From the NCBI RefSeq assembly GCF_008035925.1, contig NZ_CP036264.1, forward strand, positions 3,034,443-3,098,442: a stretch of DNA of 64,000 nucleotides, given 5' to 3'. The position numbers and the translations under genes are program-made. The DNA is from Stieleria maiorica. GTDB lineage: Bacteria > Planctomycetota > Planctomycetia > Pirellulales > Pirellulaceae. Below, piece after piece: positions 21,421 to 46,295 of this stretch (the stretch's first letter is position 1; each line of letters begins with the position of its first letter). The notes beneath the pieces are model-generated. The model saw nothing but the letters and a program-made list of their open reading frames with translations, made no database searches and was not told the DNA's origin.

Positions 21421-21421
21421 G

Positions 21422-22897: not shown

Positions 22898-22930
22898 GTG
22901 GCCCTTCGAGGGTCGAATGACAAATTGTCG

Positions 22931-26385: not shown

Positions 26386-26660
26386 TGCAAAAACTCATCC
26401 AATGCCTTTTCTGCTTGCCCTATTTCCGTCGGTGTGATGACTTGGAAACCAAGCCTTCTCAATTCCTCTGCGATGCGTTTTTGAGCCGGCCGGAGCTTGC
26501 CACCTGGCTTTTTGAACTCTGCAAAGAAAATGCCCCTGGGCGTTATCACCGTGCGATCGGGGAATCCGTTGGCCCCGTCGATGCGTAGTTTCAAAGCCAG
26601 GCAGCCTTTGCGATCGGCGTAAGCGACAAAGGCTGATTCAATGTCCGCTTCAAGTGTCAT
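26382..26660 (-). CDS. VRR-NUC domain nuclease
   Basis: 92 residues from the ATG at 26660, which overlaps the methyltransferase stop (ATGA). Conserved features of this small PD-(D/E)XK nuclease family are the N-terminal Glu (EADIESAFVAY), KLRIDGANGFPDRTVI with the metal-binding Asp, and IFFAEFKKPGG with the catalytic Glu and Lys. Small phage VRR-NUC proteins cut branched DNA and are found next to SNF2 helicases, as here. Note that the frame extends 14 codons upstream, inside the neighbour. Confidence 0.85.
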   Translation of the reverse strand: MTLEADIESAFVAYADRKGCLALKLRIDGANGFPDRTVITPRGIFFAEFKKPGGKLRPAQKRIAEELRRLGFQVITPTEIGQAEKALDEFLQ

Positions 26661-27778: not shown

Positions 27779-27780
27779 AG

Positions 27781-28011
27781 TTATTGCTCCTTAAAAACGC
27801 CAATCTTTCTACGTCGAGCCACGCGGCACGCTTCAACAATCAGTTCAGGTCTTTCCCTGATTCGCCTTCGAAGCCCCCCCACCCCTGGTACGTGCTCATC
27901 CTTAGGGAATAGGTGCTCGGCGTCTCCTGATTCCGCCACCTTTATCGCGCCGTCGTACTCGCACACTTCGTTCGCCACTTTGGTCCACTGTCTAGCGGTC
28001 AAACCGGTCAT
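27781..28011 (-). CDS. Small phage protein of unknown function
   Basis: 76 residues, Arg-rich in the second half (GLRRRIRERPELIVEACRVARRRK), suggesting nucleic-acid contact. It is flanked by polymerase and methyltransferase genes with a 4-bp overlap upstream (28008-28011) and a 2-bp gap downstream, so it belongs to the replication operon. No family recognised. Confidence 0.6.
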   Translation of the reverse strand: MTGLTARQWTKVANEVCEYDGAIKVAESGDAEHLFPKDEHVPGVGGLRRRIRERPELIVEACRVARRRKIGVFKEQ

Positions 28012-30131
28012 TTTCGGTACCTCTTTGCTTCAAAACCTTCGACTTCGATGGGACACCCCCGGCCCCATACCGGGATTTGTTTCATAATGCGTTCGAACGT
28101 TCTCAAATCGCCGAATTGATCGGGCACTTCGCAGATGATTTCGTCATGTACCGTGGCGACGATCGGGTAGCGTTCACGCTCGACCCGCAGCATCGCCTCG
28201 CAAAGAAAGTCACGGGCGATTGCCTGGACCACGTTCTCCGTCAACTTGCCCCCATAGGTCCGTTCTTTGGACCATTTGCGGGTCTTTGAATTGACTGCCC
28301 AGAACTGAATCTGCTTGATGTACTGGGGTTCTTTCGGTTGCAGTTCAGATCGAATGTTCGCCTTTTGTAGTAGCGTCCTGCCGCCCTTAGGAACACTGCA
28401 TTCAATCCATCGATCCGTCTGCCGTTCGCCCAAATCAATGCCCATGTCTTCGAGTTGCTCAGTCGCCTCTTCGGGGGCGATGATGGCACCGAAGTACCCT
28501 TCGCTCCATGGAGCCACCACATCCACCAGATGAGGCTTGCAGTAATGCAACTGGCGACCACTGGGCAATCTGATTTGCATCCATTTCGCATTGGCCGTGA
28601 TCTCCAGGCGTCCCACCCGGTGCGGCTGGTGTGTTTCCACGGCGCGGACGCACGCGGTACCGATCGATGCCCAAAAGTCTTTGATTGCCGAGTTAGATTC
28701 GCGGTAAGTTTTCACAACTTGGCGCGCGAACTTGTTATCGATCAGAACGCCCGCCATCAGTTTACAGGCCGACCGGAACGACCGGTGCCCCATGCCATAT
28801 CCCAGACCGAGGATAGCGGTTTTGCCCACGTGCCTTTGTGTCTTGATGACTTCGGATTCTTCGACCTCATAGATCTTCGAAGCCATCGAAACGTAAACGT
28901 CTGCGCCCTCAGCGAATTGCGTGAGTAGATCCGTTTGACCTGCGACCCAGGCCAGCACCCGTGCTTCGATCGATGCGAAGTCACAGACCATTAGACGGTG
29001 ACCTGGTTCTGAGACTACCATTGACCGCAGCGAGCTGCTGATGCAATCGATCGGAGGGGCTAGCAGCAAATCTAGCAGGCTTTCATCCTGGGCTGGTAAG
29101 AACCGGTGGATGATTTCGATTTCTGACGAGGACAACACACCGCGCGGGTAGTTCTGGATTTGAATCCCGCTGCCTGCCCATCTGCCTGTAGAGGCTCCAT
29201 GGTAAACCAGGTTGCCGCGTACTCGCCCGTCGGTATCACATCGCTCCAGCATCGCTTTAAGCTTCGCCGTGGATGCCTTTGACGCCTCTTGACGAATCAG
29301 CAACACTTCACGCACGACTTTGGGTAGTTCTTCCCGATCGAGCCATTCGGATACCGTTTCTTTCGCCAAGTTCGGGATGGGCTCGTCAGCTGCGGATTCG
29401 ATGAAATCGCGCATCGCCTGGACTTGTTTCGGCGTGCTGACTTTGCCTTTGGTGATTTCGCTCAGTGCATCACAGCAACGCTTGTATGTTTGATCGACAA
29501 TGGCCAAGGCGTTCTCGATCGCGGGTCTGTCAATGGCTAAGCCCCGGAGGTTGATTCGCTGGTCGAGTTGCCAAACCTTGAGCTCGGAGGGCGTCAATGG
29601 CGGGATCGCCGCACTGATGGCCATTTCACTACGCACGTCTTGTTTGCAGTAAAGGTAAAGACGCTGCAACTTCTCTGGATCGTTATCCCATTCACTTGGG
29701 TCTTTCTTGCTAGGCTTTTTGGGTTTGCACAAACGCATCATGATGCGTTTGCCACCCTCATCTTTTTGCACGGGTAAACCCAGGGCACTACCGGCAGCGT
29801 CCAAAGCACGCGGCAGCGTTAACCGGCAGCAAGCAGCGAGAGAGCAACGCCATTGAGCAAATGGAACATCAGGCCAGCCCATTCGCTCGTGACAAACATG
29901 ACGCCAAATCAGGCGTTCAAAGCCGACGTTGTGGGCCTCGATCAATTGCCCGTCTCGGATCAACTTGAACAATCCTTGGGGCAAAACATTTCCTGGCTTC
30001 CATAGAAACGGTTCACCGCCAAGCGAGTAGGCCAAACAGAGCACCAAGGTGGACTCGTCTCGTGCGTAAACGCTCGCCCCACTCTTACGAATGTCTGCCC
30101 TTGAGCGGGTTTCAAAATCGATTGTGATCAT
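28008..30131 (-). CDS. Phage DNA polymerase, family A
   Basis: 707 residues. An N-terminal 3'-5' exonuclease has IDFETRS (motif I) and YCKQDVRSEM (motif III). The polymerase part has motif A VCDFASIEARVL, motif B with RHVGKTAILGLGYG, and motif C VATVHDEII. The length suits the shorter phage form that lacks a 5'-3' nuclease. It copies the phage genome together with the primase, helicase and ssDNA-binding protein nearby. The TGA overlaps the next gene by 4 bp. Confidence 0.92.
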   Translation of the reverse strand: MITIDFETRSRADIRKSGASVYARDESTLVLCLAYSLGGEPFLWKPGNVLPQGLFKLIRDGQLIEAHNVGFERLIWRHVCHERMGWPDVPFAQWRCSLAACCRLTLPRALDAAGSALGLPVQKDEGGKRIMMRLCKPKKPSKKDPSEWDNDPEKLQRLYLYCKQDVRSEMAISAAIPPLTPSELKVWQLDQRINLRGLAIDRPAIENALAIVDQTYKRCCDALSEITKGKVSTPKQVQAMRDFIESAADEPIPNLAKETVSEWLDREELPKVVREVLLIRQEASKASTAKLKAMLERCDTDGRVRGNLVYHGASTGRWAGSGIQIQNYPRGVLSSSEIEIIHRFLPAQDESLLDLLLAPPIDCISSSLRSMVVSEPGHRLMVCDFASIEARVLAWVAGQTDLLTQFAEGADVYVSMASKIYEVEESEVIKTQRHVGKTAILGLGYGMGHRSFRSACKLMAGVLIDNKFARQVVKTYRESNSAIKDFWASIGTACVRAVETHQPHRVGRLEITANAKWMQIRLPSGRQLHYCKPHLVDVVAPWSEGYFGAIIAPEEATEQLEDMGIDLGERQTDRWIECSVPKGGRTLLQKANIRSELQPKEPQYIKQIQFWAVNSKTRKWSKERTYGGKLTENVVQAIARDFLCEAMLRVERERYPIVATVHDEIICEVPDQFGDLRTFERIMKQIPVWGRGCPIEVEGFEAKRYRK

Positions 30132-30225
30132 TCGTCCGTGTGCTCAAGGCGGGGTAGAAAGAGGCAGCAGCCTGCCAGACTCACCACTACTGACCAAAAA
30201 AGGGCAGGTGACTCCTAGAACTTTC

Positions 30226-30768
30226 TTACAAAAGAGATTCCGCCTCTTCCCCAAAGGCGTCGGCGTCCACTTCGGATTCAAAACCCTCGAATTCGCTTTC
30301 GCGGAATCCACCGCCCAGCGGTTCGCCATCTTTCCAGAACATCAAGCCGCGAAGCCCCAGCGTGACGCCTGGGTCGATGCCCTTCTTTGAATCACCGCTG
30401 TACGCAAATGCGTTCACGCTGACGTGGACATAGCAACCGGGGTAGATGTCCTCGGTCGGCTCCAACTTGCCCTGAACGCGGCGCAAGAGGGCGGGCTTCT
30501 TCTCCTCACCTGCTTTGGGGTTGATAAACAGCTTTTCGTAGCTGTGCTCGAACTCTTCGTCATCGCCTTTGCGAAGCGTCCAGTCCTTCATCCCTTTTGG
30601 GGTTTTCGAACCAAACTCATCAGCCATCGCTTCGGCACGGACCTCACGGATCTTGTCCTCCTCACCCGGTTCCAACACCACGCAGGCGGAGTATTTCATT
30701 CCGCTTTGGGTATCTTTGGGTTTGTAAATCGCGCCGCCAATGAATCGGCCTTTAACAACACACTGCAT
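30226..30768 (-). CDS. DUF2815 single-stranded DNA-binding protein
   Basis: 180 residues. The ATG at 30768 is preferred over an upstream GTG because GGAG lies 9 bases before it. The N-terminal FIGGAIYKPKDTQSGMKYSA, GYPGC-like IYPGCYVHVSVNAFAY and LRGLMFWKDGEPLGGG match the DUF2815 family of phage ssDNA-binding proteins. The C-terminal 25 residues are very acidic (EFEGFESEVDADAFGEEAES), as in many SSBs that recruit partners. It lies between the nuclease and the polymerase. Confidence 0.85.
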   Translation of the reverse strand: MQCVVKGRFIGGAIYKPKDTQSGMKYSACVVLEPGEEDKIREVRAEAMADEFGSKTPKGMKDWTLRKGDDEEFEHSYEKLFINPKAGEEKKPALLRRVQGKLEPTEDIYPGCYVHVSVNAFAYSGDSKKGIDPGVTLGLRGLMFWKDGEPLGGGFRESEFEGFESEVDADAFGEEAESLL

Positions 30769-30785
30769 TTCAGTTACTCCAATAT

Positions 30786-31904
30786 TCACTCGGACTCGCA
30801 GCTTTCAAACTCTTCCGATGCCGGTTTGCGTTCCACCGCTTTGCGACGATCGGACTCAGGAACCACCGTGGTTCCCTTGTGAGGACGTTCAACCATGCCA
30901 GTGACGAGTTCTTTACCGACAACTTTTTCGAGTTGTGCGGGGCTCATCAGGCGGGTTTCGTAGATTTGTTTCTTGCCGAACTTCTTGTTCCGGCAGCGTC
31001 GGACGATCTCGTTTTCGTCGATCGCGTATTTGCGGTTGTGGTACGTGTCGACGAGCTTGTAGCCGGGGATTGAATCGCCGAGTTCCAGGCGACCCTTAAC
31101 CCATGCCTCTACCCCTTCGATGTACGTCTTGACCGCTTTACGCATGGCCAATACTTCCGCCGCTTTATCAGGTGTCATCTGATCTGCATCGAAATCAGAT
31201 TTGGCCATGCGTAATGTCAGTTCGGAGAGTTCGGGGCAGTTGACGGCGCGAGGGCACCATCGGCAGTGATCCCCGGCGTGTAGTTCCTCTGCGCGAACGC
31301 CGTTAATGACCTTGGAAACCCGTTCGTAAAAATCGGCCAAGTACTCCCGATCGGCTTTCCACGAACGGATTGGACCATCTGGGTGATTTGTTCGCGGTTG
31401 AACGATCGTGATCTCAGTATCCAAGATGCGGCCGTTTTGGAAGTAATCGCAGAACAGCAACGCATAGGATGAGAGCTGTGCGTTGCCCTCTGCTTCGACC
31501 GTAACGCCTGCCCCATATTTGAAGTCGATGATGTGTTGTTGCGCAGGGACCCCAAAGTCAAGCGTTCCCCCAAAGCCTGCTAGCTTCGAATGCTCGATCC
31601 GAGTCTCCACCACACCTGTCGCACTTTCGGTGGCGTCCTCTAGCACGTCCAGATAGATCTGCACCGCCTCGGCCATCTCGGTATCAATGGTGATGGTGTA
31701 GCCATCACAGGAGCGAGGCTGGCCGATGAATTCACTTGGTGGTACTCCCAGCATCCAACAGTGTTCGGCCAAGGCATGCGCGACAGTCCCTTCTGCGGCA
31801 TACTCGCTTGATTTCGATTCCACCGATGGCTCTTCCACACTCGCTGGACAAGCTAGCCATCGGTCCGTTCCTGACGCGGAAAATTTGCTGTGTATCTCAG
31901 GCAT
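30786..31904 (-). CDS. DUF2800 RecB-like PD-(D/E)XK nuclease
   Basis: 372 residues of the DUF2800 phage family. It starts near FSASGTDRWLACPASV, with GFGGTLDF and HIIDFKYGAG providing the nuclease Asp and the Asp-x-Lys element. CRWCPRAVNC, with three Cys, may bind a metal or iron-sulphur cluster as in AddB/Cas4-like nucleases. The last 40 residues are charged. It precedes the ssDNA-binding protein and polymerase, as in many Firmicutes phages. Confidence 0.85.
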   Translation of the reverse strand: MPEIHSKFSASGTDRWLACPASVEEPSVESKSSEYAAEGTVAHALAEHCWMLGVPPSEFIGQPRSCDGYTITIDTEMAEAVQIYLDVLEDATESATGVVETRIEHSKLAGFGGTLDFGVPAQQHIIDFKYGAGVTVEAEGNAQLSSYALLFCDYFQNGRILDTEITIVQPRTNHPDGPIRSWKADREYLADFYERVSKVINGVRAEELHAGDHCRWCPRAVNCPELSELTLRMAKSDFDADQMTPDKAAEVLAMRKAVKTYIEGVEAWVKGRLELGDSIPGYKLVDTYHNRKYAIDENEIVRRCRNKKFGKKQIYETRLMSPAQLEKVVGKELVTGMVERPHKGTTVVPESDRRKAVERKPASEEFESCESE

Positions 31905-32235
31905 AGACTGCGATCTCCGCTAACAGCTCCGCGTACTTGTCCTCGGGGCATTCCTTGACCCGTTCAATACCGACTTTTGCCAGCACCTTCTTGAGTGTTG
32001 GCGTCCCCTTTTGCTCAAGTAATGAAGACGCAGCTTCCAGCAATTCATCCATTGTTGGAGGGTTGATTTCCTCCGGCTCCGGATCAGCTGGTTCTTCGCG
32101 CTTGCGTTTGCCGTTCGCTTTCGGGGTGGTTTTTGGTTCCGTTCCCAAAGCGGGTAGGCCGATCTTGTCCGCGATCCATTTGCGCACTGGGCCTGGGGCT
32201 TCCGCGATTTCTGATGAGGTTAATACGATTTGCAT
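31897..32235 (-). CDS. Small phage protein of unknown function
   Basis: 112 residues. A folded-looking N terminus of about 30 residues is followed by a charged linker (NGKRKREEPADPEPEE) and a helical C terminus with two segments (MDELLEAASSLLEQKG, TLKKVLAKVGIERV). It overlaps the DUF2800 start by 8 bp. It may be a regulatory or partner protein of the nuclease; nothing specific is visible. Confidence 0.55.
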   Translation of the reverse strand: MQIVLTSSEIAEAPGPVRKWIADKIGLPALGTEPKTTPKANGKRKREEPADPEPEEINPPTMDELLEAASSLLEQKGTPTLKKVLAKVGIERVKECPEDKYAELLAEIAVYA

Positions 32236-32302
32236 TCTGACTCTCCGTTAAAGGCCGGGTGTAGCGGCTGCGCGGATGAACGCCACCCGCAGCGTGCGGT
32301 CA

Positions 32303-32512
32303 CTATGACCGGTGTTTCTTCATTTCAATGACGCGTTCCATCGCCGTTTGATAGTCCTCGCCGTCAAGGATCACGTGCATCAGCTCATCCGCCTCATCAC
32401 TACCCAACGGTTCGTTGTGCAGCCTCGCGAAATCCTTGGCTAGCTCGCCCAGCTGGTCGCGTAAATGGCCCGCCCTGGCGATGTACTGATTGATGTTCTT
32501 GATGCGATTCAT
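32303..32512 (-). CDS. Small acidic helical protein
   Basis: 69 residues from the ATG at 32512 with a modest ribosome site (GGTGAAA) before it; a longer frame reads back through the csrA terminator and is unlikely. Helical, rich in Asp/Glu and Arg, without Cys. It is the first gene after the terminator, so it needs its own promoter or readthrough. Function unknown. Confidence 0.5.
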   Translation of the reverse strand: MNRIKNINQYIARAGHLRDQLGELAKDFARLHNEPLGSDEADELMHVILDGEDYQTAMERVIEMKKHRS

Positions 32513-32526
32513 AGTTTCACCCGCTG

Positions 32527-32567
32527 GAAAAACACGCCGCGACGGCCTTCTTAAACCGCCGCGGCGC
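32527..32567 (-). terminator. Rho-independent terminator of csrA
   Basis: On the minus strand an 11-bp stem (one mismatch; arms CGCCGCGGCGG and CCGTCGCGGCG) with a 10-base loop is followed by TGTTTTT. It lies 14 bases after the csrA stop and separates csrA from the replication genes. Confidence 0.8.
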
Positions 32568-32580
32568 TGGTGTGCCACCG

Positions 32581-32784
32581 CTACTTTGCGGTGGGTCCGT
32601 TGTTGCCTTTACCACGGTCGCGATCACGTTGGATCGCGTCGTAGACTTCCTGTCGATGGACTGGGATGCATTGCGGAGCCTCGATCCCGAGTCGCACCTT
32701 GTCACCGCGAATGTCAACGATCGTGATCGCGACGTCGTCACCAATTCGGATCGTTTCGTCCTTGTGTCTGCTCAAAACCAACAT
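32581..32784 (-). CDS. csrA: Prophage-encoded CsrA translational regulator
   Basis: 67 residues beginning MLVLSRHKDETIRIGDDV, with VRLGIEAP and VHRQEVY: the CsrA/RsmA fold, including Leu4, Arg6 and Arg44 that contact RNA. The start follows AAAGGAG 8 bases upstream. Two GGA triplets (AAGGA and AAAGGAG) overlap and precede the ribosome site, the usual arrangement for CsrA self-repression. It is expressed downstream of a tRNA-like gene and ends in its own terminator, apart from the replication operon. CsrA binds mRNA leaders and changes translation; in a prophage it could reset host expression or time phage genes. Confidence 0.92.
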   Translation of the reverse strand: MLVLSRHKDETIRIGDDVAITIVDIRGDKVRLGIEAPQCIPVHRQEVYDAIQRDRDRGKGNNGPTAK

Positions 32785-32825
32785 TGCCGAACTCCTTTGT
32801 TCCTTGGCGTGAAATTGAAAACCAG

Positions 32826-32899
32826 CGAACGGGGCCGGAATTGAACCGACATGACCTGCCAAGGTGAAAAGCAGTGCTCTACCATTGAGCTACCCGTCC
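32826..32899 (-). tRNA. tRNA-like gene with an enlarged 9-nt anticodon loop
   Basis: The 74-nt sequence folds into a full cloverleaf. Acceptor GGACGGG pairs with CCCGTTC, the D arm is GCTC/GAGC with loop AATGGTA, the T arm is GTCGG/CCGGC with loop TTCAATT, the variable loop has five bases and the discriminator is G. No CCA is encoded. The anticodon stem CTGCT/GGCAG encloses nine bases, TTTCACCTT, instead of seven, so the amino-acid identity is unclear (a Glu TTC or Val CAC reading is possible). It lies 41 bp upstream of csrA and is probably transcribed with it. Confidence 0.75.
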
Positions 32900-32903
32900 G
32901 AGT

Positions 32904-32947
32904 GCCGGCGCCGTGGGTTGGGTTATGAGCCCGTCACGGTCACCGGC
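32904..32947 (-). ncRNA. Hairpin with a tRNA-Met-like CTCATAA loop
   Basis: On the minus strand GCCGG and CCGTG pair with CACGG and CCGGC across small internal bulges. The top of the hairpin is GGG-CTCATAA-CCC, whose seven-base loop equals a CAT anticodon loop. It ends 4 bases before the tRNA-like gene. No D or T arm is seen, so it is not a normal tRNA; it could be a decayed tRNA or a structured leader. Confidence 0.45.
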
Positions 32948-32969
32948 GTCGATCGCTACCAACGATCGA

Positions 32970-32995
32970 AAAACGCTCATCCCTGAGCAGCTTGC
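32970..32995 (-). promoter_or_regulatory. CsrA-site-like GGGA hairpin, possible terminator
   Basis: On the minus strand GCTCA-GGGA-TGAGC forms a 5-bp hairpin, followed by G and five T. The loop and its flanks read CAGGGATG, the core of the published CsrA consensus (RUACARGGAUGU). Two further GGA triplets lie within 25 bases upstream. The T-run could make this the terminator of the four-gene early operon. Confidence 0.45.
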
Positions 32996-33051
32996 TCCGT
33001 CTCGCTCCTATGCACTCATTGCCGCCGATCGTCGTGATCGACGCGGGTGAT

Positions 33052-33279
33052 TTAGCTGTGCTTCCAAAGGTCTTTGAATACGTCGCGTGCCCAAGCGAAA
33101 AACACGATTCCCCAGAGCAATGTCGCTCCGACAAACCCAGCTACAAAAGTGATCATCAGTCGTTGTTCCGTACTTCGAGGGATCTCGCTGCAGACGCTCA
33201 CCACCGCGAACGAGACGAGGATGGCAACCATCACTGCAACACAAATGGTTGACAGGGTCAGGAATGCGGTGAGGGTCAC
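33052..33279 (-). CDS. Small two-pass membrane protein
   Basis: 75 residues with two strong hydrophobic segments (about 3-29, LTAFLTLSTICVAVMVAILV, and 43-63) joined by a short polar loop, then a basic C terminus. It overlaps the upstream gene by 4 bp. Size and topology are those of small phage inhibitors or superinfection-exclusion proteins, but no family is recognised. Confidence 0.55.
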   Translation of the reverse strand: MTLTAFLTLSTICVAVMVAILVSFAVVSVCSEIPRSTEQRLMITFVAGFVGATLLWGIVFFAWARDVFKDLWKHS

Positions 33280-33755
33280 TGGTCAGACTCCACCAACACA
33301 ACGTTTTGCCCTTGCTTGGCCAGCAGTTCACTGGCAGACACCAGCCGGCCGATGTTGATCGGTGCCTGCTTGATGTACTTGGCGATCTCACCCGGCAAGC
33401 TTGGGCCATTTCGCTTGATGTAAGCGACGACTCTCTTTTCGATCGCTTCATCGATCTTGAAGTTGACCTTCGCCGACCCGCCACCGCCCAACACTTTCCG
33501 TAGTTTCTTGAGCTTGGCCGACTTTGCTTCCAGCTGTTCGATTTGCTCATCGATCCGCTTCATCGAGTCGGGATCGGTCAGCACATCGATAGCACGGTCA
33601 AGGTTTGATGCTTCCATCGTTTGGATTCTCCGCAGTGCGTTGTCCTCGCCGGGCAACATGGGAATAGGGTTTTCGTCGTAGGGTGCAAAAAGCGGCTCGC
33701 CCTGATCGGCCAGCTTGCGGTAGTGTTCAATTCGTTCCGCTGATCCTGGACGCAT
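33276..33755 (-). CDS. Early phage protein, helix-rich
   Basis: 159 residues. The middle has a coiled-coil-like helix (MKRIDEQIEQLEAKSAKLKKLRK); the C-terminal 60 residues (VVAYIKRNGPSLPGEIAKYI) look like a winged-helix fold. It could be a DNA-binding regulator of the early operon. Adjacent genes overlap by 1-4 bp, so the four genes from 34,304 to 33,052 form one operon. Confidence 0.5.
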   Translation of the reverse strand: MRPGSAERIEHYRKLADQGEPLFAPYDENPIPMLPGEDNALRRIQTMEASNLDRAIDVLTDPDSMKRIDEQIEQLEAKSAKLKKLRKVLGGGGSAKVNFKIDEAIEKRVVAYIKRNGPSLPGEIAKYIKQAPINIGRLVSASELLAKQGQNVVLVESDQ

Positions 33756-34024
33756 TACCGGTACCGCTCGACCAGATCCTTGGCTTCTTCCGATCGCGTG
33801 TTTGGGCGAACATTGGCAAGGCGGCTTGGGCCAACCGAGTTGCGGATCTGGCGGAGCGTGTCAGCTCCTCGTGTCCATTCATCCCGCAGCTTTGATCGCC
33901 ATCGTTGACCATTGGCTTCGATGTAGCGGACCAGATCAGCCTTGACGTGAGGGCCGATGCAGCCGTGTTCCAAGCATTGAACCGGCCCCCTGCCACACCA
34001 ATTGCATGTGCGTCGTTTGCTCAC
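33755..34024 (-). CDS. Small Cys/His zinc-binding-type protein
   Basis: 89 residues; the N terminus has CNWCGRGPVQCLEHGC, giving four Cys and a His within 16 residues, a probable zinc knuckle. The remainder is basic and helical. Nucleic-acid binding is likely, exact role unknown. Confidence 0.5.
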   Translation of the reverse strand: MSKRRTCNWCGRGPVQCLEHGCIGPHVKADLVRYIEANGQRWRSKLRDEWTRGADTLRQIRNSVGPSRLANVRPNTRSEEAKDLVERYR

Positions 34025-34028
34025 CGCA

Positions 34029-34304
34029 TCACCCTCCCGCCTTAATGCGGGTGTACGCGTCCACGTGATCCGCGATCGATTCCATGCACTCCAATTGCGC
34101 CTCGCCGATCTCGTTTCGCCGTTTCAATTCGGCCAACGCTCGCTCGTTGTGATCGTCAGTTTGACGCTTGGCTTTCGTGTCGCCGCGGAGCCACTTGCAC
34201 AGCTCGATGGTGACAAACCAGCCGACGACGCCGAGCGTCATCCCCGTGGAGACGCCAGCGCCCCAGAGCATGGCGGTGAAGAAGGTGGTCATACTTGCAC
34301 TCAT
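34029..34304 (-). CDS. Membrane-anchored helical protein, first early gene
   Basis: 91 residues from the ATG at 34304; an ATG four codons later is an alternative. One hydrophobic segment (about 10-30, MLWGAGVSTGMTLGVVGWFV) is followed by a charged helix. The longer frame upstream runs through the terminator-like hairpin and is unlikely to be translated. No Shine-Dalgarno motif is obvious before either start. Unknown function. Confidence 0.5.
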   Translation of the reverse strand: MSASMTTFFTAMLWGAGVSTGMTLGVVGWFVTIELCKWLRGDTKAKRQTDDHNERALAELKRRNEIGEAQLECMESIADHVDAYTRIKAGG

Positions 34305-34313
34305 GTTTTGTTG

Positions 34314-34381
34314 AAAGAAAAAGCCCGCCGCAGGATTGCCATCGATGTGCGGTCGATGTCGATAAGGCCCTGCGACGGGCT
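34314..34381 (-). terminator. Hairpin with T-run just upstream of the first early gene
   Basis: AGCCCGCCGCAGG pairs with CCTGCGACGGGCT (12 of 13) across a 34-base loop; on the minus strand it is followed by TTTTTCTTT. It ends about 10 bases before the first early start codon. It may terminate transcripts entering from the att side or act as an attenuator. Confidence 0.65.
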
Positions 34382-34448
34382 GGTTTGGTTTGTTGGAAGC
34401 ATCAACCGCACGGCCAGAACGATAGAAGCCGAAAACCCCGTGGACGCG

Positions 34449-34469
34449 AGCGCCCAGAATTTGGGCGCT
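34449..34469. promoter_or_regulatory. 8-bp palindrome near the prophage end
   Basis: AGCGCCCA and its complement flank GAATT. It lies about 95 bp inside the putative att fragment. It could be a repressor operator or an integrase/excisionase site; no protein is known to bind it. Confidence 0.35.
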
Positions 34470-34488
34470 GAGGTCGCAAAATGACCAG

Positions 34489-34507
34489 GCGCACCTGAAG
34501 CGCACCT
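34489..34507. repeat. Direct repeats GCGCACCT near the att fragment
   Basis: Two copies of GCGCACCT start 11 bp apart, about 55 bp from the att fragment. Paired direct repeats close to an att core are typical of integrase arm or excisionase sites. Supported by position only. Confidence 0.35.
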
Positions 34508-34560
34508 AAGCCGATTTCCGCGTCAGTTCGTGCGGGAAAAGACGGTGTTTCTCGATAGCA

Positions 34561-34580
34561 TTCGAGTCCCTCAACGCCCA
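34561..34580 (+). other. Candidate attachment site: tRNA 3'-end fragment
   Basis: TTCGAGTCCCTCAACGCCCA has the form of a T loop (TTCGAGT), T-stem 3' strand (CCCTC), acceptor 3' strand (AACGCCC) and discriminator A. The bases on its left do not pair with the T stem (GAGGG would be expected), so it is a fragment, not a gene. Such fragments remain at one end of a prophage inserted into a tRNA gene, with the intact gene at the other end. The acceptor would be GGGCGTT, as in some tRNA-Lys genes; identity is a guess. Confidence 0.6.
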
Positions 34581-34776
34581 TTATCGTCAAAAATCCCCGT
34601 GTTATTGGGGATCAGCCGTTTGACGCCAGCCTACGGGCTTCGATCGGCGCTGGGGCCCCATAGTCGCTGGTGCCCGAGCGCTGGCGCGATTCGGCTGATG
34701 CCACTCGTGTTTCGTCGTCCGATGGCTGCGGTGAGTCGACCATCCATCGCAGCGCCCATGACCTGGATGATGGGGA

Positions 34777-35805
34777 TTATTCTTGTTGCGTCGGTTCCGC
34801 GAAAGCTTGCAACTCGCTTGGCAACTCCCATTCGCTCTCGACCGTCTCGCGGACCCTTTTTCCGGAATAGTCTTGGTAATTCAATTGGAACAATGTTGCC
34901 AAAGGCTCGATCGGGTCGGGCGCGTCAAAATCGAAGCAATGTTTGGGGATCTCCTTGCCAAGCTTCCATGCTAAATAATAGTCGCCCTCGTGGAAAACGA
35001 CTTCCCGTCCGGCAAATGATGTGTAGGCAAACTCGATTCGCCGTGGCAACCAAAGTCCTTTCTGGAGCTTCCATTCGTAACGACCGCGGACCAAGATCTC
35101 TGATGCCAGCGGAAGATTGCTTTCCGGGACGGTGATCTGCACATCGATCGGCATATCGTTGTGCGCCTTGCTGAAGACGATCTTGAACTGGTGGATCGTT
35201 TGTTTCTGCTGCGTCCGTAGGACCGCTTCGGTTTGTCCCGATCCAAGTTCTCGTGCGGAGACAAATTGAAGTTCACTTCGCAACTGTGAAATCGTCTTCC
35301 TTGGCAAGAACGTGAAGTTCATCGCGGAAGGCCAGAGCCAATCGACGAATGGATCATGTTTGATGACCAGGGACGGAAATGGATTGTTTCGTTTGGTATA
35401 CCGTGTCCGTGGCATTTCCGTTGCCGGCCCCTGCGGACTTGGCTTGACTTTCACCCGTTTGCCATTGAACGTCTCCCAGGCCCACCGCGTATGGGGCCGT
35501 GTAAACGGAGCCTGGCCGCCGACGGATTGAAATGTTGCGGTCGTCTTATTGGAGGAAACGTACGTCGTGAAGTCAGCACGCTCACAGGTCAATTGAAGCG
35601 AAGGAATGATGCGACCATCGTCGCCGTTGTGAGGTGGCTGGGATAGCAAGCCCGTCGCCATGCAGGCATAGCCGTTGCGCACCAGGTCTTCGTGGGCGGA
35701 TTGGTATTTTTTCAGCGTCTCCGCCACGTATGCTTCGACGCCGCCGTCACCACGGACAGGCGTTGACACGAAAAGCAAAATCATTGCAATCAACAGTCGG
35801 CTCAT
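34777..35805 (-). CDS. Exported protein of unknown function
   Basis: 342 residues with a signal peptide (MSRLLIAMILLFVSTPVRG). The mature protein is Lys/Arg/Pro- and Trp-rich with alternating strands (KGLWLPRRIEFAYTSF, VQITVPESNLP), resembling planctomycete outer-membrane or LolA-like carrier proteins, though no motif settles this. It is the first host gene beyond the prophage border and ends about 200 bp from it, so its coding region seems untouched by integration. Confidence 0.75.
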   Translation of the reverse strand: MSRLLIAMILLFVSTPVRGDGGVEAYVAETLKKYQSAHEDLVRNGYACMATGLLSQPPHNGDDGRIIPSLQLTCERADFTTYVSSNKTTATFQSVGGQAPFTRPHTRWAWETFNGKRVKVKPSPQGPATEMPRTRYTKRNNPFPSLVIKHDPFVDWLWPSAMNFTFLPRKTISQLRSELQFVSARELGSGQTEAVLRTQQKQTIHQFKIVFSKAHNDMPIDVQITVPESNLPLASEILVRGRYEWKLQKGLWLPRRIEFAYTSFAGREVVFHEGDYYLAWKLGKEIPKHCFDFDAPDPIEPLATLFQLNYQDYSGKRVRETVESEWELPSELQAFAEPTQQE

Positions 35806-36218
35806 ACTCCACCCTTTCGAAAGAAAGCCTCAGCAACTTCTAAGAGGAGTCCACTACGATATCAGAACCCCATCGGCCGTGGGAAACGATTCGTGTCATT
35901 CGAGTGATTCGTGGACCTATCTCCTCACCACTGTGCACATCCTGGTCCATCGCCTGACCTCACTCTTGTGAGTGGTGCGTCCAAAGTGCAGCTAAACTCC
36001 GACCGCAGAGTTCAGGGGCCGAGCCCCCCTGCCCGTCGAGTTCGATTACATTGGCCACCGCCATCGATGGCTCAATCGGTCGTCGTAGCCGGACGCGCGA
36101 GCATCCGCCCGCACACGCTGGCACGGCGTCGGTGTCCATCGAAAACTCAATCTCGTCCACCGGCGAATCTGTATTGGCTTTGACACACAAGCGAAATTCA
36201 ACACCCAGGAAGATACTG
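35806..36218. other. Intergenic region without a supported gene
   Basis: About 410 bp between a minus-strand gene and a plus-strand gene. Promoters for both should lie here. I see no convincing gene, RNA, terminator or mobile element. Confidence 0.4.
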
Positions 36219-36467
36219 ATGGAATTACTGCTCGGTCTGATCGCAATCGCTGCAATAGGAATTAGCATCATTGGATGGCTTTGGATTGTCGTCATGGCGT
36301 TTGGCGAGGGCGAGCCGCTTTGGGGAATCGGTTGCTTGATCATCTCACCGTTGTGCCTTGTGTATGGATTGCTCAATTATCAAGAACTGAAGATCCCGTT
36401 CATGTTGATACTCGGTGGTTTCATCGCTCGGATTGCCGTCGGCGCGATCGCCGTATCAATCAGTTGA
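36219..36467 (+). CDS. Small membrane protein
   Basis: 82 residues from the ATG at 36219; the longer upstream frame lacks coding character. Three hydrophobic segments (MELLLGLIAIAAIGISIIGWLW, GIGCLIISPLCLVYGLL, and the C-terminal LILGGFIARIAVGAIAVSI) separated by short loops. Unknown family. First of a row of short plus-strand genes with roughly 50-130-bp gaps. Confidence 0.6.
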   Translation: MELLLGLIAIAAIGISIIGWLWIVVMAFGEGEPLWGIGCLIISPLCLVYGLLNYQELKIPFMLILGGFIARIAVGAIAVSIS

Positions 36468-36592
36468 ACCTTACCAGCGCGATACCAGCGAACGAACTCA
36501 CCGAACCTGATGCCTCCCACGTCGTCGAGGCCCGCGTGCGAAGTGAACCTTGCCGTTCGGCTATGGCGTGTCGGTCAACAATGGAGAGTAAA

Positions 36593-37897
36593 ATGATTGT
36601 GCGAACGATCTGGATTCTGATCGCACTCATCAGCCTGCCGTGTCTTGCCAATGCCGCAGATTTCTATCTCACTCCGCAAGGTGGCGGACGCAAAGACGGT
36701 ACAAGTTGGGAGCATTCATTCGGCCAGCAGTCCCTCTCCGACGTCGTGAATGAGACGATGCAGCCCGGTGATCGGTTGCTGATCGGTGGAGGCCGCTTCG
36801 TCGACGTTCGGTTGTCGATTTTCCAAGGGGGAGTGGAGGGATTTCCCAAGACGATCTCGGGGGTGGATCGCGGCGACGGACTGCCGGTCTTCGTTTCAAC
36901 ATGGTCGGAGAAATATCCGGACAAGGGAGCGACCTTGGTGCGCATCGAACCCGGAACGGGACACGTGATCTTGGAGGGATTGCGGATCGAGGATTACGAA
37001 ATCGGTGTTCTCGTGCCGATGGGAAAGGGTGGATCGAATTGTCCGCAATTGGTCTTCAACGACGTCGACATGAAAAGATTTCGGCACGGGTTCTACCTGT
37101 CCGATTGCGACGATCTGGTGCTGGAAGGCTGTGATCTGCGCAGGTACACCAAGCACGCCTTTCGCTTTGAGCAGGGATGTAATCGTGTGACGGTGCGGCA
37201 ATGCACCGCCGACTGCTCCGAGGGGGACACCGAGTGGGAGACGAAGACGGAGCTGTTTCCATTCGGCTTTCTGGTCAACAACGGTGGCACTCCCAACTCG
37301 GGGTTTGTGTTTGAAGACTGCCTCGCGCGCAACAACAGGATGCCGCTTCAGAAGGCGAGCTACAAAAACGGCGATGGATTTGTGGTCGAGGGGAATACGT
37401 CGGACGTGCGTTTCGTCCGTTGTCGGGCCATTCGCAACCAGGATGGCGGGTACGACTTGAAAGTGGCAGACGTCGAACTGATCGATTGCGTGGCCCTTGG
37501 CAACTCGCGAAACATTCGGATCTGGAAGACCGCCACGCTGGAAAACTGCTTTTCTGGCTGGGCGTCCTGCGGACTTTGGTGCAACGGAGGTCCGATCACG
37601 GTCCAGCGGTCGACGTTTCATGAGCTGAGAAAAGCTGCCGTGCAGACGGACGATAAGGCGAGAGAACCCGTGACTCTCAACGATTGCCTGGTCTCTTCCT
37701 GCCCGGCGGTCCACCGCAAGACGGCGCGCGGTAAAGTCGTCACCAATGAGACCGTGGTCGTTGACGACGCAGCCGGCCAATCGCCGGATTATGTGCAACC
37801 GAGTCCCGAATGGGATGGCCTGGGGGAATCCTTGGACAGCCAAGCGTTTTCCGAGAAAGGTTACCATCGTTCGCGACCCCGTAGCGTCACCGACTGA
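36593..37897 (+). CDS. Exported right-handed beta-helix protein
   Basis: 434 residues; the ATG at 36593 follows GGAG 8 bases away and starts a signal peptide (MIVRTIWILIALISLPCLANA). The earlier in-frame ATGs lie upstream of the ribosome site. The mature part begins DFYLTPQGGGRKDG, a common start of planctomycete parallel beta-helix proteins, and goes on with repeated V/I-x-x-C/N strand turns (LEGLRIEDYEIGV, VFEDCLARNN). These often bind or cleave polysaccharides such as pectin or chondroitin; no catalytic residues were identified. Confidence 0.75.
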   Translation: MIVRTIWILIALISLPCLANAADFYLTPQGGGRKDGTSWEHSFGQQSLSDVVNETMQPGDRLLIGGGRFVDVRLSIFQGGVEGFPKTISGVDRGDGLPVFVSTWSEKYPDKGATLVRIEPGTGHVILEGLRIEDYEIGVLVPMGKGGSNCPQLVFNDVDMKRFRHGFYLSDCDDLVLEGCDLRRYTKHAFRFEQGCNRVTVRQCTADCSEGDTEWETKTELFPFGFLVNNGGTPNSGFVFEDCLARNNRMPLQKASYKNGDGFVVEGNTSDVRFVRCRAIRNQDGGYDLKVADVELIDCVALGNSRNIRIWKTATLENCFSGWASCGLWCNGGPITVQRSTFHELRKAAVQTDDKAREPVTLNDCLVSSCPAVHRKTARGKVVTNETVVVDDAAGQSPDYVQPSPEWDGLGESLDSQAFSEKGYHRSRPRSVTD

Positions 37898-38003
37898 GGG
37901 TCAAAAAATCAGCTGGTCAAAAAATGATTGGGGCAAACAAATAGGACTTTAAGTTTTTTAACTCGGTGGGACTGCCAAGAGTCAATCAATTGGTCCTTGG
38001 ACA

Positions 38004-38300
38004 ATGACACAAGAGCAGTGGTTAGAAAACTATATCGAGTCATGCTTCGCGGGTGTTTCACTTGGTGCTGGACGCGACATCTATGCCGCACAGTCGATGG
38101 ATGATTACGGAAACCCGGACGAAGATCGACTGTCGTCGTCAGCGGAACGTCATGACTGGCGACGAGTCCCACGTGATGATCTGTTTCCGCGATTTTGGGC
38201 TGTGACATTACTTGACGCTGAATCGGACTGGCCTGCCGGTACGCAACTTGAGTTCACCTGGGACCGGGAAACTGGCACTGTTGGCAAGGATCCGTTCTAA
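38004..38300 (+). CDS. Small conserved-type hypothetical protein
   Basis: 98 residues, acidic and soluble. The layout (N-terminal helix, AGRDIYAAQSMDDYG, central W, then RVPRDDLFPRFWAVTLLD) recalls the DUF6714-type family of orphan bacterial proteins; I hold that match loosely. It has its own start and stop in a row of plus-strand orphan genes. Confidence 0.55.
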   Translation: MTQEQWLENYIESCFAGVSLGAGRDIYAAQSMDDYGNPDEDRLSSSAERHDWRRVPRDDLFPRFWAVTLLDAESDWPAGTQLEFTWDRETGTVGKDPF

Positions 38301-38424
38301 TCCAGTCCTGCGATCGGTCATCGCACACGAAGGCCGACCAACTTCTGACGCAAGATCGATCCCCGCTGCTCCGCGTGCGCGGATAGATCGCAATTCGTTA
38401 TCCGGTAGGGGCCGATTGCATCGC

Positions 38425-39147
38425 ATGATCCGACGACCTTGGCTCACCGGCGTCTGCACGCTTGTCGCAACTCTAACAATACCGCAAGTTGCACATGCCG
38501 ATGTCATTTCGCCATTTGTGTACTTCTGGCCCGGCGTCATCTCAATCACGATCGTCTATGCCTTTCCCTCGAGCCTATTGGCGGGGTTTGTCGAGGAACC
38601 GTTTTTCCGTCGAGGTGGTGTCCGCAGGCGTCCCCTCGCGGCATCACTACAAGCAAACTTCCTGACTACGATCGTTGGGCTTGCCTTGATCCCCGTCGGC
38701 TACCCAGCGCTCTACACGATCGGACCGATCTGGTGCCTTGTCGCGTTTTCCATTTCTTGTTTTGTTGAACTTTACTACTTGCGTTGGGCGACTGGCGTGT
38801 CAATCAACTTCCGCTGGATCGTCATTGGCAACTGTATCAGTGCCGCGATTCTCGTGGCTCTTCCTCCACTGGCGTATGCACTCGGGCAGCACAACTACCG
38901 CTTGGCGTGGTCCATGCAATCACACGATGTTTGGCTATCGTGGATCGCAATCGCGGTAAGCGCTGCAACGTTTTTGCTTAGCTTTGCCTGGTCAGCGCGA
39001 GAAGTACTGTCGCACTCAGATCTCGAACCGGATGCCGCAGCTGGAATCGATTCAGGGGATACCTCCAAAGCTCTGCTTGAACCCGCCGCGAAACTGCCAA
39101 CTAACCATGATGTCCACCGAAGGGCGGCACGGGGCGTTTGGAAATGA
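38425..39147 (+). CDS. Multi-pass membrane protein
   Basis: 240 residues from the ATG at 38425 (MIRRPWLTGVCTLVATLTIP); the longer frame starts inside the upstream gene. At least five hydrophobic segments are visible (including VISITIVYAFPSSLLAGF, FLTTIVGLALIPVGY, WIVIGNCISAAILVAL) plus a short Asp/Ala-rich cytoplasmic tail. Function unknown. Another orphan gene of the row. Confidence 0.6.
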   Translation: MIRRPWLTGVCTLVATLTIPQVAHADVISPFVYFWPGVISITIVYAFPSSLLAGFVEEPFFRRGGVRRRPLAASLQANFLTTIVGLALIPVGYPALYTIGPIWCLVAFSISCFVELYYLRWATGVSINFRWIVIGNCISAAILVALPPLAYALGQHNYRLAWSMQSHDVWLSWIAIAVSAATFLLSFAWSAREVLSHSDLEPDAAAGIDSGDTSKALLEPAAKLPTNHDVHRRAARGVWK

Positions 39148-39196
39148 AAGACATCCCGCCGTCTCCGGCAACGTCGGTCGTTATGCGAGACAAATC

Positions 39197-39604
39197 GTGA
39201 ATCCCTATTCTCCTCCGAACGATGGTGCGATCGAAACGCCCCGTTTTTCGAGCAGGAATCCCGCGAAGCCATTGCTATATCTGGCCGGAGGCTATGGCCT
39301 TGTTTTCGGATCAATGGTGTTTCTTGCTGGTGCTTTCGTCGGTTTCCACGTCTTGGTGGTAGGTATTGTTCATCTTATGTTCGGCGCCGCCGCTATCATG
39401 TTGGCGAGACGCCCGTACTCGCAATCGACCAGGATTGCTACCGTTGCTTGGTCTGTCTGTCTGTGCGGGCTGATCATTTTTTTGTCGTGGACGAACGCGA
39501 GCGATTCATCGGACCGATCGGATTTGACGTACCTGACGATCTCATTGACGATTGGTGGGGCAATCGGGTTGTTTCCGCTGGTTCGAGGGCCAGCAAGTCG
39601 TTAA
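39197..39604 (+). CDS. Small membrane protein, GTG start
   Basis: 135 residues. The GTG at 39197 is chosen because the protein then begins VNPYSPPNDG, a leader very common in planctomycete proteins; the in-frame ATG 71 codons upstream overlaps the neighbour. Four hydrophobic segments cover the rest (LLYLAGGYGLVFGSMVFLAG, VGIVHLMFGAAAIML, IATVAWSVCLCGLIIF, and the last helix). Function unknown. Confidence 0.6.
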   Translation: MNPYSPPNDGAIETPRFSSRNPAKPLLYLAGGYGLVFGSMVFLAGAFVGFHVLVVGIVHLMFGAAAIMLARRPYSQSTRIATVAWSVCLCGLIIFLSWTNASDSSDRSDLTYLTISLTIGGAIGLFPLVRGPASR

Positions 39605-39710
39605 GTACCCCCGTCCCTTTTTCGAGCTTTGCCGCACAACACGAACCAGAGCGTTTCCGGCGACTGCGGGTTGATGTGAACCTTGGAATCCTGTCAGTGC
39701 GCAAACCGCT

Positions 39711-40250
39711 TCAACGAAACAGGGAATCCTTTGAAAGTTGAAGGCGACAGTCGCCACAGATCGAGAATTCGATCGAGCCGGCGATGGATTCGTGGACCCA
39801 GTCCTGCGTTTCGGATCGGCGATAGACCTCGAACGTTTCTTGCTCTGGATCGACCAGCAGGTAGATCCCCACGCCCTGTTCTTTGTACAGGTCCCGTTTC
39901 GCTTCCCGGTCCCGCACGGCAGTCGCCGCAGACTGAATCTCAGCAACCAGACCAGGCGGGGTCTCGACGTGTTTCTCTGGCGTGTCGCCACAAACCACGA
40001 TCACATCGGGGCGAACCACCGTGTCGCGAGAAACGATCCAATCGATCTCGAACAGCACGTTTGCTTGGCAACCTGCTTCCCGGATCTTGACATCAAGGTC
40101 GACGACGAGGTTGCGTGCGATTCGTTGATGAGCACCAAACGGACTAGGCGTCATTGAAACCGCGATCCCCTGCCACAGTTCCCAATCTCCTTCCCAGTTC
40201 TGGTAGTCCGCGACCGTGTAGTGCGGTAGGTAGCGGCGAGCGGTTGACAT
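39711..40250 (-). CDS. Uma2-family putative nuclease
   Basis: 179 residues with Uma2 (DUF820) features: the N-terminal YTVADYQNW, WELWQGIAVSMTPSP, VVRPDVIVVCG, and PPGLVAEIQSAATAVRDREAKRDLY with the PD-(D/E)XK-like Asp, Glu and Lys. The GVGIYLLVDPE segment is typical. Such proteins occur in many copies in planctomycetes and cyanobacteria; their substrate is unknown. The C-terminal CGDCRLQL carries two Cys. Confidence 0.85.
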   Translation of the reverse strand: MSTARRYLPHYTVADYQNWEGDWELWQGIAVSMTPSPFGAHQRIARNLVVDLDVKIREAGCQANVLFEIDWIVSRDTVVRPDVIVVCGDTPEKHVETPPGLVAEIQSAATAVRDREAKRDLYKEQGVGIYLLVDPEQETFEVYRRSETQDWVHESIAGSIEFSICGDCRLQLSKDSLFR

Positions 40251-40283
40251 CGAGAATTATCGATAGCGGGGAATCGGATTCGA

Positions 40284-40305
40284 TCTGCTACCGGATTGTA
40301 GCAGA
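40284..40305. terminator. Perfect 8-bp hairpin between two minus-strand genes
   Basis: TCTGCTAC and its complement around a 6-base loop, located between the 195-codon gene and the Uma2 gene. There is no T-run, so termination is only possible. Confidence 0.35.
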
Positions 40306-40341
40306 CCAGTCGCCGCAGTCACCTTTTCACCGAATCGCGTC

Positions 40342-40896
40342 TCAGACGGCTTGCTCTGCCGCCGCGATCAGGTTCCTGGCGTTGGCGAGGTGTTGTTGGG
40401 CACGGCGGATGCTGGCGTCCACTTCGTCCATGTAACCATCGGCTGCGGCTGACCAGCTGCGGTTGACGTAGCGTTCGGCTGACGCGAACTCGGTCATCAC
40501 GTCGGCATAGACGGCCATTCCGAATCGCTTGACGAGAGCTTGACGCGAATCGGCGAAATCGGAAAGTGGTTCGGCGCAGCGGTCGTCGATGAATTTTAAG
40601 GCGTCGGCAGGGGGACACCGGGAGTGCTGACAGAGCGTTTCCACGGCGGTCGACAGCTCGGCCAGGCTGCTGGTGATGACCGAGTATTCCGCCTCGGTCT
40701 TGTCTTCATCGCGGTGGTCATCGTGTTTGGCACGCCGCAGCAGGACGATCCCAACAATCCCGACCGCCAGCGACACCGCGTACCACAGCCACGGGACCGT
40801 CGACCATTTATCGTCCTGGACTTCCAGCTGTGACACCGAAGCGAACGAGCCAGCCAGAAAGCCCAACCACATCAGTATTTGTCCGAGTGCACGCAT
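40342..40896 (-). CDS. Two-pass membrane protein
   Basis: 184 residues from the ATG at 40896, which overlaps the OPT stop by a few bases and fits the coupled arrangement; the earlier ATG adds 11 residues. Two hydrophobic segments (ALGQILMWLGFLAGSF and WYAVSLAVGIVGIVLLRR) are followed by a cytosolic, Asp/Ala-rich helical domain with three Cys. Probably co-transcribed with the OPT transporter and perhaps associated with it. Confidence 0.55.
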   Translation of the reverse strand: MRALGQILMWLGFLAGSFASVSQLEVQDDKWSTVPWLWYAVSLAVGIVGIVLLRRAKHDDHRDEDKTEAEYSVITSSLAELSTAVETLCQHSRCPPADALKFIDDRCAEPLSDFADSRQALVKRFGMAVYADVMTEFASAERYVNRSWSAAADGYMDEVDASIRRAQQHLANARNLIAAAEQAV

Positions 40897-40901
40897 CGCA
40901 A

Positions 40902-42749
40902 TCACATCCACCTGGAAAGTTGTTGGCAACCGAGCATCGCTGTTTCCGCGGTTTCGGGGGCTGCGAAAAAGACTTGGTAGAGCGCGTTGCCGACTCCCAC
41001 CAAAGCTTCACCGACGATCAGCCCCGCCGCGATCGGGATCCCGACCTCGTGGCCGAATTTGGTGCCGAGTGATTTGTCGGAGACGATTCGCAGCACGTTG
41101 CCGATGGTGTACGTCAAGGCGATCTGAAACGGCATGTAGAATCCCAGTGCGATCAACACGCCGATGCCTCCCAAACCGCTCATCGCCAGCAAGAGTCCCA
41201 GTCCCGCGCCGGCGGTGTAGCGGTATGCGGGGACGTTGTCGTTCAAGATCCCTTCTGTCACCGAAGCCAACGCTTGGGCCTGGGGCGCGGGCAGCTTGTC
41301 CGATCCGATTTGGTACTGGTTGTTCAGCAGGAACATCAACGAGATCACGATCACCGGACCCAGCCAGGCACCGATGAATTGTGCCCATTGCTGACGCCGT
41401 GGAATCGCCCCGACCAGGTAGCCGCTTTTCAGGTCCAACATCATGTCGCTGGCCTGGGAGATCGCCAGGCAAATGGCCGCACCGACGACCATCGAACTGG
41501 TGATCGTCGCGGCCGAATCAAGGCCTCCCTTGGCGACCAAGATCAGGATGGTCACCGCGATCAACGTCATGCCTGACAACGGCGACCAATTGGTCCGTCC
41601 GATGCATTCGGCGACCACGACGCCGGCGACCCAGACCCAAAGTGTTCCCAACACGGCCATCGTGACGGCGCGGCCCAGCGTCATCTCGGGCACCGACTTG
41701 AACGCGATCATGACCATCACCAGCAGCCCGATCCCGATGGCGGCATACAAAAACCGGATCGGCATCTCGTCATTGTAGGCGTTGACCCCGGAGTCCTTTT
41801 GCTGCCCCGCGGCGTGCATCGACTTGAACGCACTGGCGATCAGCGGAAACGCGGCAACGATGCCTCCGACCGCTGCACCGACCAGCATGCCGATCCCGAG
41901 TGGCTTGTAAAGCACGCCGCGCATCTCGTTGGGCGAAGATACCATCGCCGCGACGCCTTCGCCACCGAACTGACTCAACAGTGGTGACAGCAGGAAGTAG
42001 CAAATGAACCCGCCGCATCCGAACCAAAAGCCGCCTTTCCCGGACAGGTATCCGACGCCGATCGTCATCACGGACAAGTACAGACTGAGATTCAGCATCG
42101 CCGGCAATCCGAATTGGCTGCCCGCATGCCAGTCGTGGTCTTCCCCCATCAAGGACAAGACCAAGACGTGGGCGATCCCCGAAATCAACGCCCCGCCGAG
42201 TAGCAAGACGGCTTTGCGAACCCCCGCGCCGGGCGATTTCAAGATCGTGGCGACGGCGATGCCGCCCGGATAGGCCAGGCGATCGAAATCGATCATCTGT
42301 TTACGCAGCGGAATCACGAAGGCCAATCCCAAGACGCATCCGGTGATGCAGGCCAGGATCATCAGCGGCGTGTTGAAATTTGCCACCGATTCGAAGCCTT
42401 CGCTGCGGCTGAGAATGAACAGCGCGGGCACAGAAAACATGATACCCGAGGACGCACCGTTGACCGCCGACGCGATCGTTTGGTTGATGTTGTTTTCGAC
42501 GATGCTGGTGCGCCGCATCACGCCCCGCAAGACGCCCCAGCCCAAGATGGCAGCCAGCTCGGAGCCTTCGATCGCAAAGCCGAGAATCAACGCGGCGTAG
42601 CCGATCGAGACGGCGATCAACGCGCCGATGACCCAACCGACCAACACGGCGGTCCAAGTGAACTCGGGGTACGGCCCATGGCGAACAGGGATCGAGCCGT
42701 CTGCGCTGGGAATCGCCTGGGCGTTTTGTGGTGAATCAGAATCCGACAT
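40902..42749 (-). CDS. OPT-family oligopeptide or metal-chelate transporter
   Basis: About 615 residues; start set at the ATG at 42749 (a codon four earlier also reads ATG). About 14-16 hydrophobic segments with many Gly residues cover the protein. EFTWTAVLVGWVIGALIAVSIGY at the N terminus, AYPGGIAVATILKSP and LKSGYLVGAIPRRQQW fit OPT transporters. They import oligopeptides or metal-siderophore complexes by proton symport. No ABC or binding-protein gene is nearby, consistent with a secondary carrier. Confidence 0.85.
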   Translation of the reverse strand: MSDSDSPQNAQAIPSADGSIPVRHGPYPEFTWTAVLVGWVIGALIAVSIGYAALILGFAIEGSELAAILGWGVLRGVMRRTSIVENNINQTIASAVNGASSGIMFSVPALFILSRSEGFESVANFNTPLMILACITGCVLGLAFVIPLRKQMIDFDRLAYPGGIAVATILKSPGAGVRKAVLLLGGALISGIAHVLVLSLMGEDHDWHAGSQFGLPAMLNLSLYLSVMTIGVGYLSGKGGFWFGCGGFICYFLLSPLLSQFGGEGVAAMVSSPNEMRGVLYKPLGIGMLVGAAVGGIVAAFPLIASAFKSMHAAGQQKDSGVNAYNDEMPIRFLYAAIGIGLLVMVMIAFKSVPEMTLGRAVTMAVLGTLWVWVAGVVVAECIGRTNWSPLSGMTLIAVTILILVAKGGLDSAATITSSMVVGAAICLAISQASDMMLDLKSGYLVGAIPRRQQWAQFIGAWLGPVIVISLMFLLNNQYQIGSDKLPAPQAQALASVTEGILNDNVPAYRYTAGAGLGLLLAMSGLGGIGVLIALGFYMPFQIALTYTIGNVLRIVSDKSLGTKFGHEVGIPIAAGLIVGEALVGVGNALYQVFFAAPETAETAMLGCQQLSRWM

Positions 42750-43001
42750 CTGCCAGCACAACTCCTCGGGTCATGAACGTGTGTCGCCAGCCTATTGCAT
42801 TGACTAGCGGATCGCAAGCTGGTCACGCGGCATCGCGGAGCGCACACGCCACCACTGGCAGTCTACCGCGGTTTGGTTTTCGATCGCGGAGGACAGTCGC
42901 CGCCCTCTCCGAGGTCGGCGCCAGGCAACGCTTCGCTTTGCGATCCGCCGAGTTCGGAGAACAAGGCGACTCTCCGAAGGCGGTCTGGGATCCGTGGGGA
43001 T

Positions 43002-44120: not shown

Positions 44121-44197
44121 GACCGATCTTCCCCCAAGCGTTGCTTTGCGTGATCGCCTTGACGTCGCGACGCGCGCCAGAGCGATGGAAATCCAGC

Positions 44198-44226
44198 GGA
44201 TCCACCTTCTGGCGAAGGTAGCTACG
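44198..44226 (-). repeat. 29-bp dispersed repeat, copy A
   Basis: Exact reverse complement of 46,296-46,324. It lies between the GH5 gene and the following small gene, upstream of the GH5 start. The two copies flank the small exported gene and the sialidase-like gene in inverted orientation. Confidence 0.8.
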
Positions 44227-44234
44227 TGAGAGAA

Positions 44235-44813: not shown

Positions 44814-44900
44814 GGTCACGGCTCGTTGTTCGGGGGTTGGGAAAGGGGGCGGTCTGTCCTTGTCCAAGCGAAAACGTGGTGACACTGTTACAGGGGGATT

Positions 44901-46247: not shown

Positions 46248-46295
46248 CCGGGCGGCTCCACATTACGCACAGAACGAGGTGAATGGTCGATTAAA

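Follow-up and report, generated by a model that had tools for sequence, protein, structure and literature searches.

Islands that reside in tRNA genes are sorted in Islander into classes that include a T-loop/junction class (J) (PMC4383910), and the 7-nt anticodon loop of a tRNA together with its stem has been likened to a lambda-like overlap region (PMC8371274). The locus described here lies in a window of 64,000 nucleotides (the whole stretch that was analysed, G000:C1:3034443-3098442) of the genome of Stieleria maiorica, and resembles the Islander islands (PMC4383910) in having an intact tRNA at one end, a displaced 3' fragment, pointing the same way, at the opposite end, and a tyrosine integrase inside; the position of its core fits class J, and there is no basic difference. 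We conclude that positions 34561-34583 are almost certainly the attR of a temperate phage that was integrated by a tyrosine integrase, with a predicted fold like that of lambda integrase, into the 3' end of tRNA-Val(TAC), given the exact copy of the tRNA 3' end, the intact tRNA-Val(TAC), the integrase beside it, and the phage head, packaging, and replication genes in between. The prophage is a textbook case of integration at a tRNA gene; the arrangement is ordinary and well understood, and this genome shows it with unusual clarity. A literature search found no description of this element, and the word phage is absent from the Stieleria papers PMC7293339 and PMC12254169.

The sequence-only reading had proposed a fragment comprising the T loop, T-stem, acceptor, and discriminator of a tRNA at positions 34561-34580. 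This proved correct: TTCGAGTCCCTCAACGCCCA, read directly from the plus strand there, matches the 3'-terminal 20 nt of tRNA-Val(TAC) without a difference, and ARAGORN called no tRNA at that place. Across the 9.89 Mb genome (9,894,293 bp) the 20-mer is found without mismatch exactly twice, both times on the plus strand, one copy at G000:C1:3022253 (12.2 kb left of the window) and the other at window position 34561; permitting up to three mismatches added two scattered matches across the whole genome. The left copy makes up the 3' end of an intact tRNA-Val(TAC) outside the window, as had been predicted from the fragment's 3' end and plus-strand orientation, and a ribosomal protein S21 gene lies left of that tRNA. 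Identity between the copies extends beyond the 20-mer by 0 nt leftward and by 3 nt (TTA) rightward, giving a full common core of 23 nt, TTCGAGTCCCTCAACGCCCATTA; from the start of one copy to the start of the other is 46,750 bp. The first base of the core is also that of the 7-nt T loop (TTCGAGT), from which the core continues through the 3' strands of the T-stem and acceptor; because identity begins at the loop's first base, strand exchange would be placed within this 7-nt loop. Terminator scans around the two cores returned three matches each, versus 0.8 and 1.0 expected.

Short tRNA fragments can come from decay, and the bases at the right end might on that account be a decayed or chance copy unconnected with integration; we consider this scarcely credible, since the 23-nt identity is exact and has sharp ends, the chance expectation is 1.8e-5 (for the 20 nt given, in this genome, on both strands, with uniform bases), and the copy lies on the expected strand, at the edge of phage genes, with an integrase at the opposite end. 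To gauge repetitiveness roughly, 2000 random 20-mers were drawn from the 86 kb region, and 5 of them had a second plus-strand copy within it. If the fragment is attR, as we hold, the phage attP would have carried a copy of the tRNA 3' end; upon crossover, the tRNA at the left end would be made whole again by the phage copy, giving attL, and the displaced 3' end of the host's tRNA would remain at the right end. Coordinates of the features are collected in Table 1.

Table 1. Features of the prophage, its ends, and related regions; plain numbers are window positions.
Feature	Position	Strand	Remarks
tRNA-Val(TAC)	L003:10199-10273 = G000:C1:3022198-3022272	+	Rfam tRNA, 70 bits
Left-end GCGCACCT pair, candidate	L003:10477 and 10498		223 and 244 bp right of left core start
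Tyrosine integrase, 393 aa	G000:C1:3022645-3023826 = L003:10646-11827 (outside window)	-	PF00589, phrog_1
Right part of the 46,750-bp prophage	1..34583	.	Prophage starts at G000:C1:3022253, 12,190 bp left of window
Last open frame before attR, 91 aa from ATG 34304	34029..34304	-	Start codon presumed
Candidate integrase arm site GCGCACCT, copy 1	34489..34496	+	72 bp left of right core; putative function
Candidate integrase arm site GCGCACCT, copy 2	34500..34507	+	61 bp left of right core; putative function
Core read as attR: T loop, T-stem 3' strand, acceptor 3' strand, discriminator A, and TTA	34561..34583	+	Copy of tRNA-Val(TAC) 3' end
Strain-specific DNA between attR and the backbone common to G013	34584..39978	.	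Comparison with G013
Backbone colinear with G013	39979..62929	.	Main blocks 90-93% DNA identity, one 84%
Related prophage regions	G001:C1:927132-968666, G012:C1:5402236-5451296, G005:C113:27563-51285		Terminase 77-78% identical

The fragment had also been taken to mark the right border of a prophage, and the 23-nt copy does lie at the edge of phage genes. Twelve of the 20 element proteins scanned first, a selection of its frames, had PHROGs matches at E 1e-3, and the families represented included major head protein, portal, terminase large subunit, primase/helicase, DNA helicase, DNA methyltransferase, DNA polymerase, and exonuclease; a further scan added a Gp2.5-like ssDNA-binding protein. 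Replication genes of the integrated phage (DNA polymerase, primase/helicase, Gp2.5-like ssDNA-binding protein, and exonuclease) occupy 23058-31904 and are of T7-like kinds; at E 1e-8 they had no counterparts in the prophage regions of G001, G012, and G005 that are related to this one. The last open frame before attR had no significant family match. The prophage also bears a tRNA of its own, called Val(CAC), at 32825-32899 on the minus strand (Rfam, 50.9 bits), the anticodon arm of which, CTGCT-TTTCACCTT-GGCAG, can be read with a loop of 9 nt or, if a T.T mismatch closes it, of 7 nt; the tRNA is possibly decayed or altered in its decoding. This tRNA was considered as the integration target and rejected, its 3' end being different from the core. 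Searches of viral_contigs with the 23-mer core, the terminase, and the integrase gave no matches and thus no free form of the phage.

An integrase beside the intact tRNA had likewise been anticipated, and a tyrosine integrase gene has its stop codon 372 nt past the end of the left tRNA-Val(TAC), with the phage genes between the two ends. The protein matched PF00589 at E 1.7e-9, above the cut-off, and phrog_1 at E 9.6e-26. In a 12-sequence alignment R243, K269, R336, and Y367 were invariant and H358 was aligned with H or N in the other sequences; we take these five to be the catalytic R, K, R, H, Y set. The histidine of the HxxR box is commonly conserved in tyrosine integrases and is not strictly required; here that position is Q333, and the other 11 aligned sequences have Q (six), V (three), or H (two). 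The predicted structure (mean pLDDT 78.9, pTM 0.50) had full-length lambda integrase as its best Foldseek match (E 5.8e-10, TM-score 0.46 to the model), and the PDB entries matched were 5j0n, 1z1g, and 1z1b, with TM-scores to the model of only 0.44-0.49. The alignment to lambda integrase ran over the full length and included a small N-terminal strand-strand-helix domain (strands 12-18 and 21-28, helix 32-50) of the kind that an arm-binding domain would have; no Pfam arm-binding domain was listed for the protein up to E 1. The two integrases differ in that they are about 16% identical, that the target here is a tRNA T loop, and that Q333 takes the place of the HxxR histidine. A PDB sequence search with the integrase gave nothing at E 0.01, and a search of genome_contigs gave no confirmed relative.

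The attP of lambda has paired words flanking its core, and at this locus, too, a paired word lies to either side: GCGCACCT is present inside each prophage end in two direct copies, and these pairs are likely to be sites bound by the N-terminal domain of the integrase. With ATG 34304 as the start of the last frame, the right pair would fall between genes; an alternative listed frame of 158 aa from GTG 34505 would overrun the candidate sites. A fifth, single copy lies elsewhere in the element (G000:C1:3039750), and none was found on the opposite strand of the 86 kb. The pattern GCGCACCT N3-40 GCGCACCT occurs at two places genome-wide, one inside each prophage end, against a chance expectation of about 0.18 per strand under a first-order model; the reversed control pattern gave 0 forward matches and 1 reverse match, and 6 of 19,678 random window pairs of the element had a common 8-mer present at least twice in both. 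The word was picked after being seen, and these statistics are support and not proof.

Relatives within the genus bear on both the insertion and its target. tRNA-Val(TAC) was matched in each of the 14 genus genomes compared, S. maiorica included; 13 of the matches cover the whole tRNA (94.7-100% identity), and the one in G008 is truncated by the end of a contig. Genome G013 has the highest DNA identity to S. maiorica among eight relatives compared, and in it the left flank and the sequence corresponding to 39979-62929 are colinear with ours, the flanks being 14.6 kb apart with other DNA replacing the prophage; since both flanks exist there without the prophage between them, the prophage is an insertion. 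An exact empty site was not found, the post-tRNA sequence being unlike the window from 34584 onward in 12 of 12 other genus genomes compared; those of G001, G002, and G005 resemble one another. At its site G013 holds other frames and, beside the tRNA, an integrase remnant that over 128 aa shares 81% identity with the C-terminal portion of the G012 integrase at the same tRNA; a terminase piece 67% identical to that of the prophage lies elsewhere in G013.

The sequence-only reading had placed the fragment between the last phage gene and the first host gene; the border stands, and the host gene, at 34777, is part of strain-specific DNA, with the backbone beginning only at about 39,979. No counterpart of note of 34584-39978 was found in the syntenic region of G013, the gene at 34777-35805 was matched in 7 of 39 other genomes (best 41%), and a dispersed repeat of about 143 bp with imperfect inverted arms lies at 34608-34750; attR therefore borders strain-specific host DNA and not conserved backbone. 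Among the candidates scored (21 of 294, so that many more are possible), the repeat has at least 20 further near-full-length and at least two shorter copies in this genome; it also has partial matches in relatives of the genus.

In G012, tandem tRNA fragments lie 10.4 and 32.0 kb from tRNA-Val(TAC). The second G012 element is like ours in its tRNA target, its T-loop core, and a direct word present twice on each side of the core, and its terminase is 46% identical; it differs in its integrase (27% identical over 320 aa), in its arm word, which is TGGTCCAC and not GCGCACCT, and in standing in tandem with another element. The TGGTCCAC copies start at +122/+134 and -63/-51, and the G013 integrase remnant has kept two at the same +122/+134; four further copies occur in the 79.6 kb of G012, and the control gave 5 of 19,246 window pairs. 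No 8-mer was present twice in both arms of the first G012 element, so that two words per arm were found in two of the three elements tested. The tandem array of G012, the remnant in G013, and the 5.4 kb that follow attR and are strain-specific all speak for repeated insertion at this tRNA, and our fragment might accordingly be the attR of an older or different element, with the phage having entered separately; that the genome has only two exact copies of the core, each with a GCGCACCT pair beside it inside the prophage end such that both ends fit one integrase, makes this very improbable.

Six of the 14 genomes have the OPT-transporter gene of window 40902-42761 at 94% or above, and in all four of those six with both genes on one contig it lies downstream of the tRNA in the same orientation, at distances of about 15.5 kb (G013), 43 kb (G001), 53 kb (G000), and 69 kb (G012). 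The stretch from tRNA-Val(TAC) to the OPT-transporter gene is variable, with the tRNA as its anchor. In the 43 kb of G001 a search that allowed up to four mismatches found no second tRNA fragment, and intact islands therefore do not explain all of the variation.

The terminase relatives in G001 and G012 are at other places in the chromosome, and that in G005 is on a contig other than that of its tRNA-Val, so none of them provides an empty site. Structural genes are widely common to the prophage and the G001 and G012 regions, and only some are found in that of G005; all three regions also contain tRNA-Leu(CAA) and tRNA-Ser(GGA), and they are possibly one old shared insertion. Two other integrase matches in S. 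maiorica end close to tRNA genes, C1:6022974-6024062 about 212 bp from 6024274-6024347 and C1:3994812-3995402 about 165 bp from the tRNA at 3995567-3995638, so further tRNA islands are likely in this genome.

Both ends of the 46.7-kb prophage are hereby fixed to the base, which supplies an attP/attB pair that can be put to the test, together with candidate arm sites; such a pair might be turned into a tool for site-specific integration in this lineage. We also lean, with some reserve, towards the 3' end of tRNA-Val(TAC) being a long-used hotspot of the genus, at which at least two distant integrases (27% identity) share one attP plan, consisting of overlap in the T loop and two direct 8-nt arm words per side, and use different arm words; if this is true, the arm words of such islands would be readable from sequence alone.
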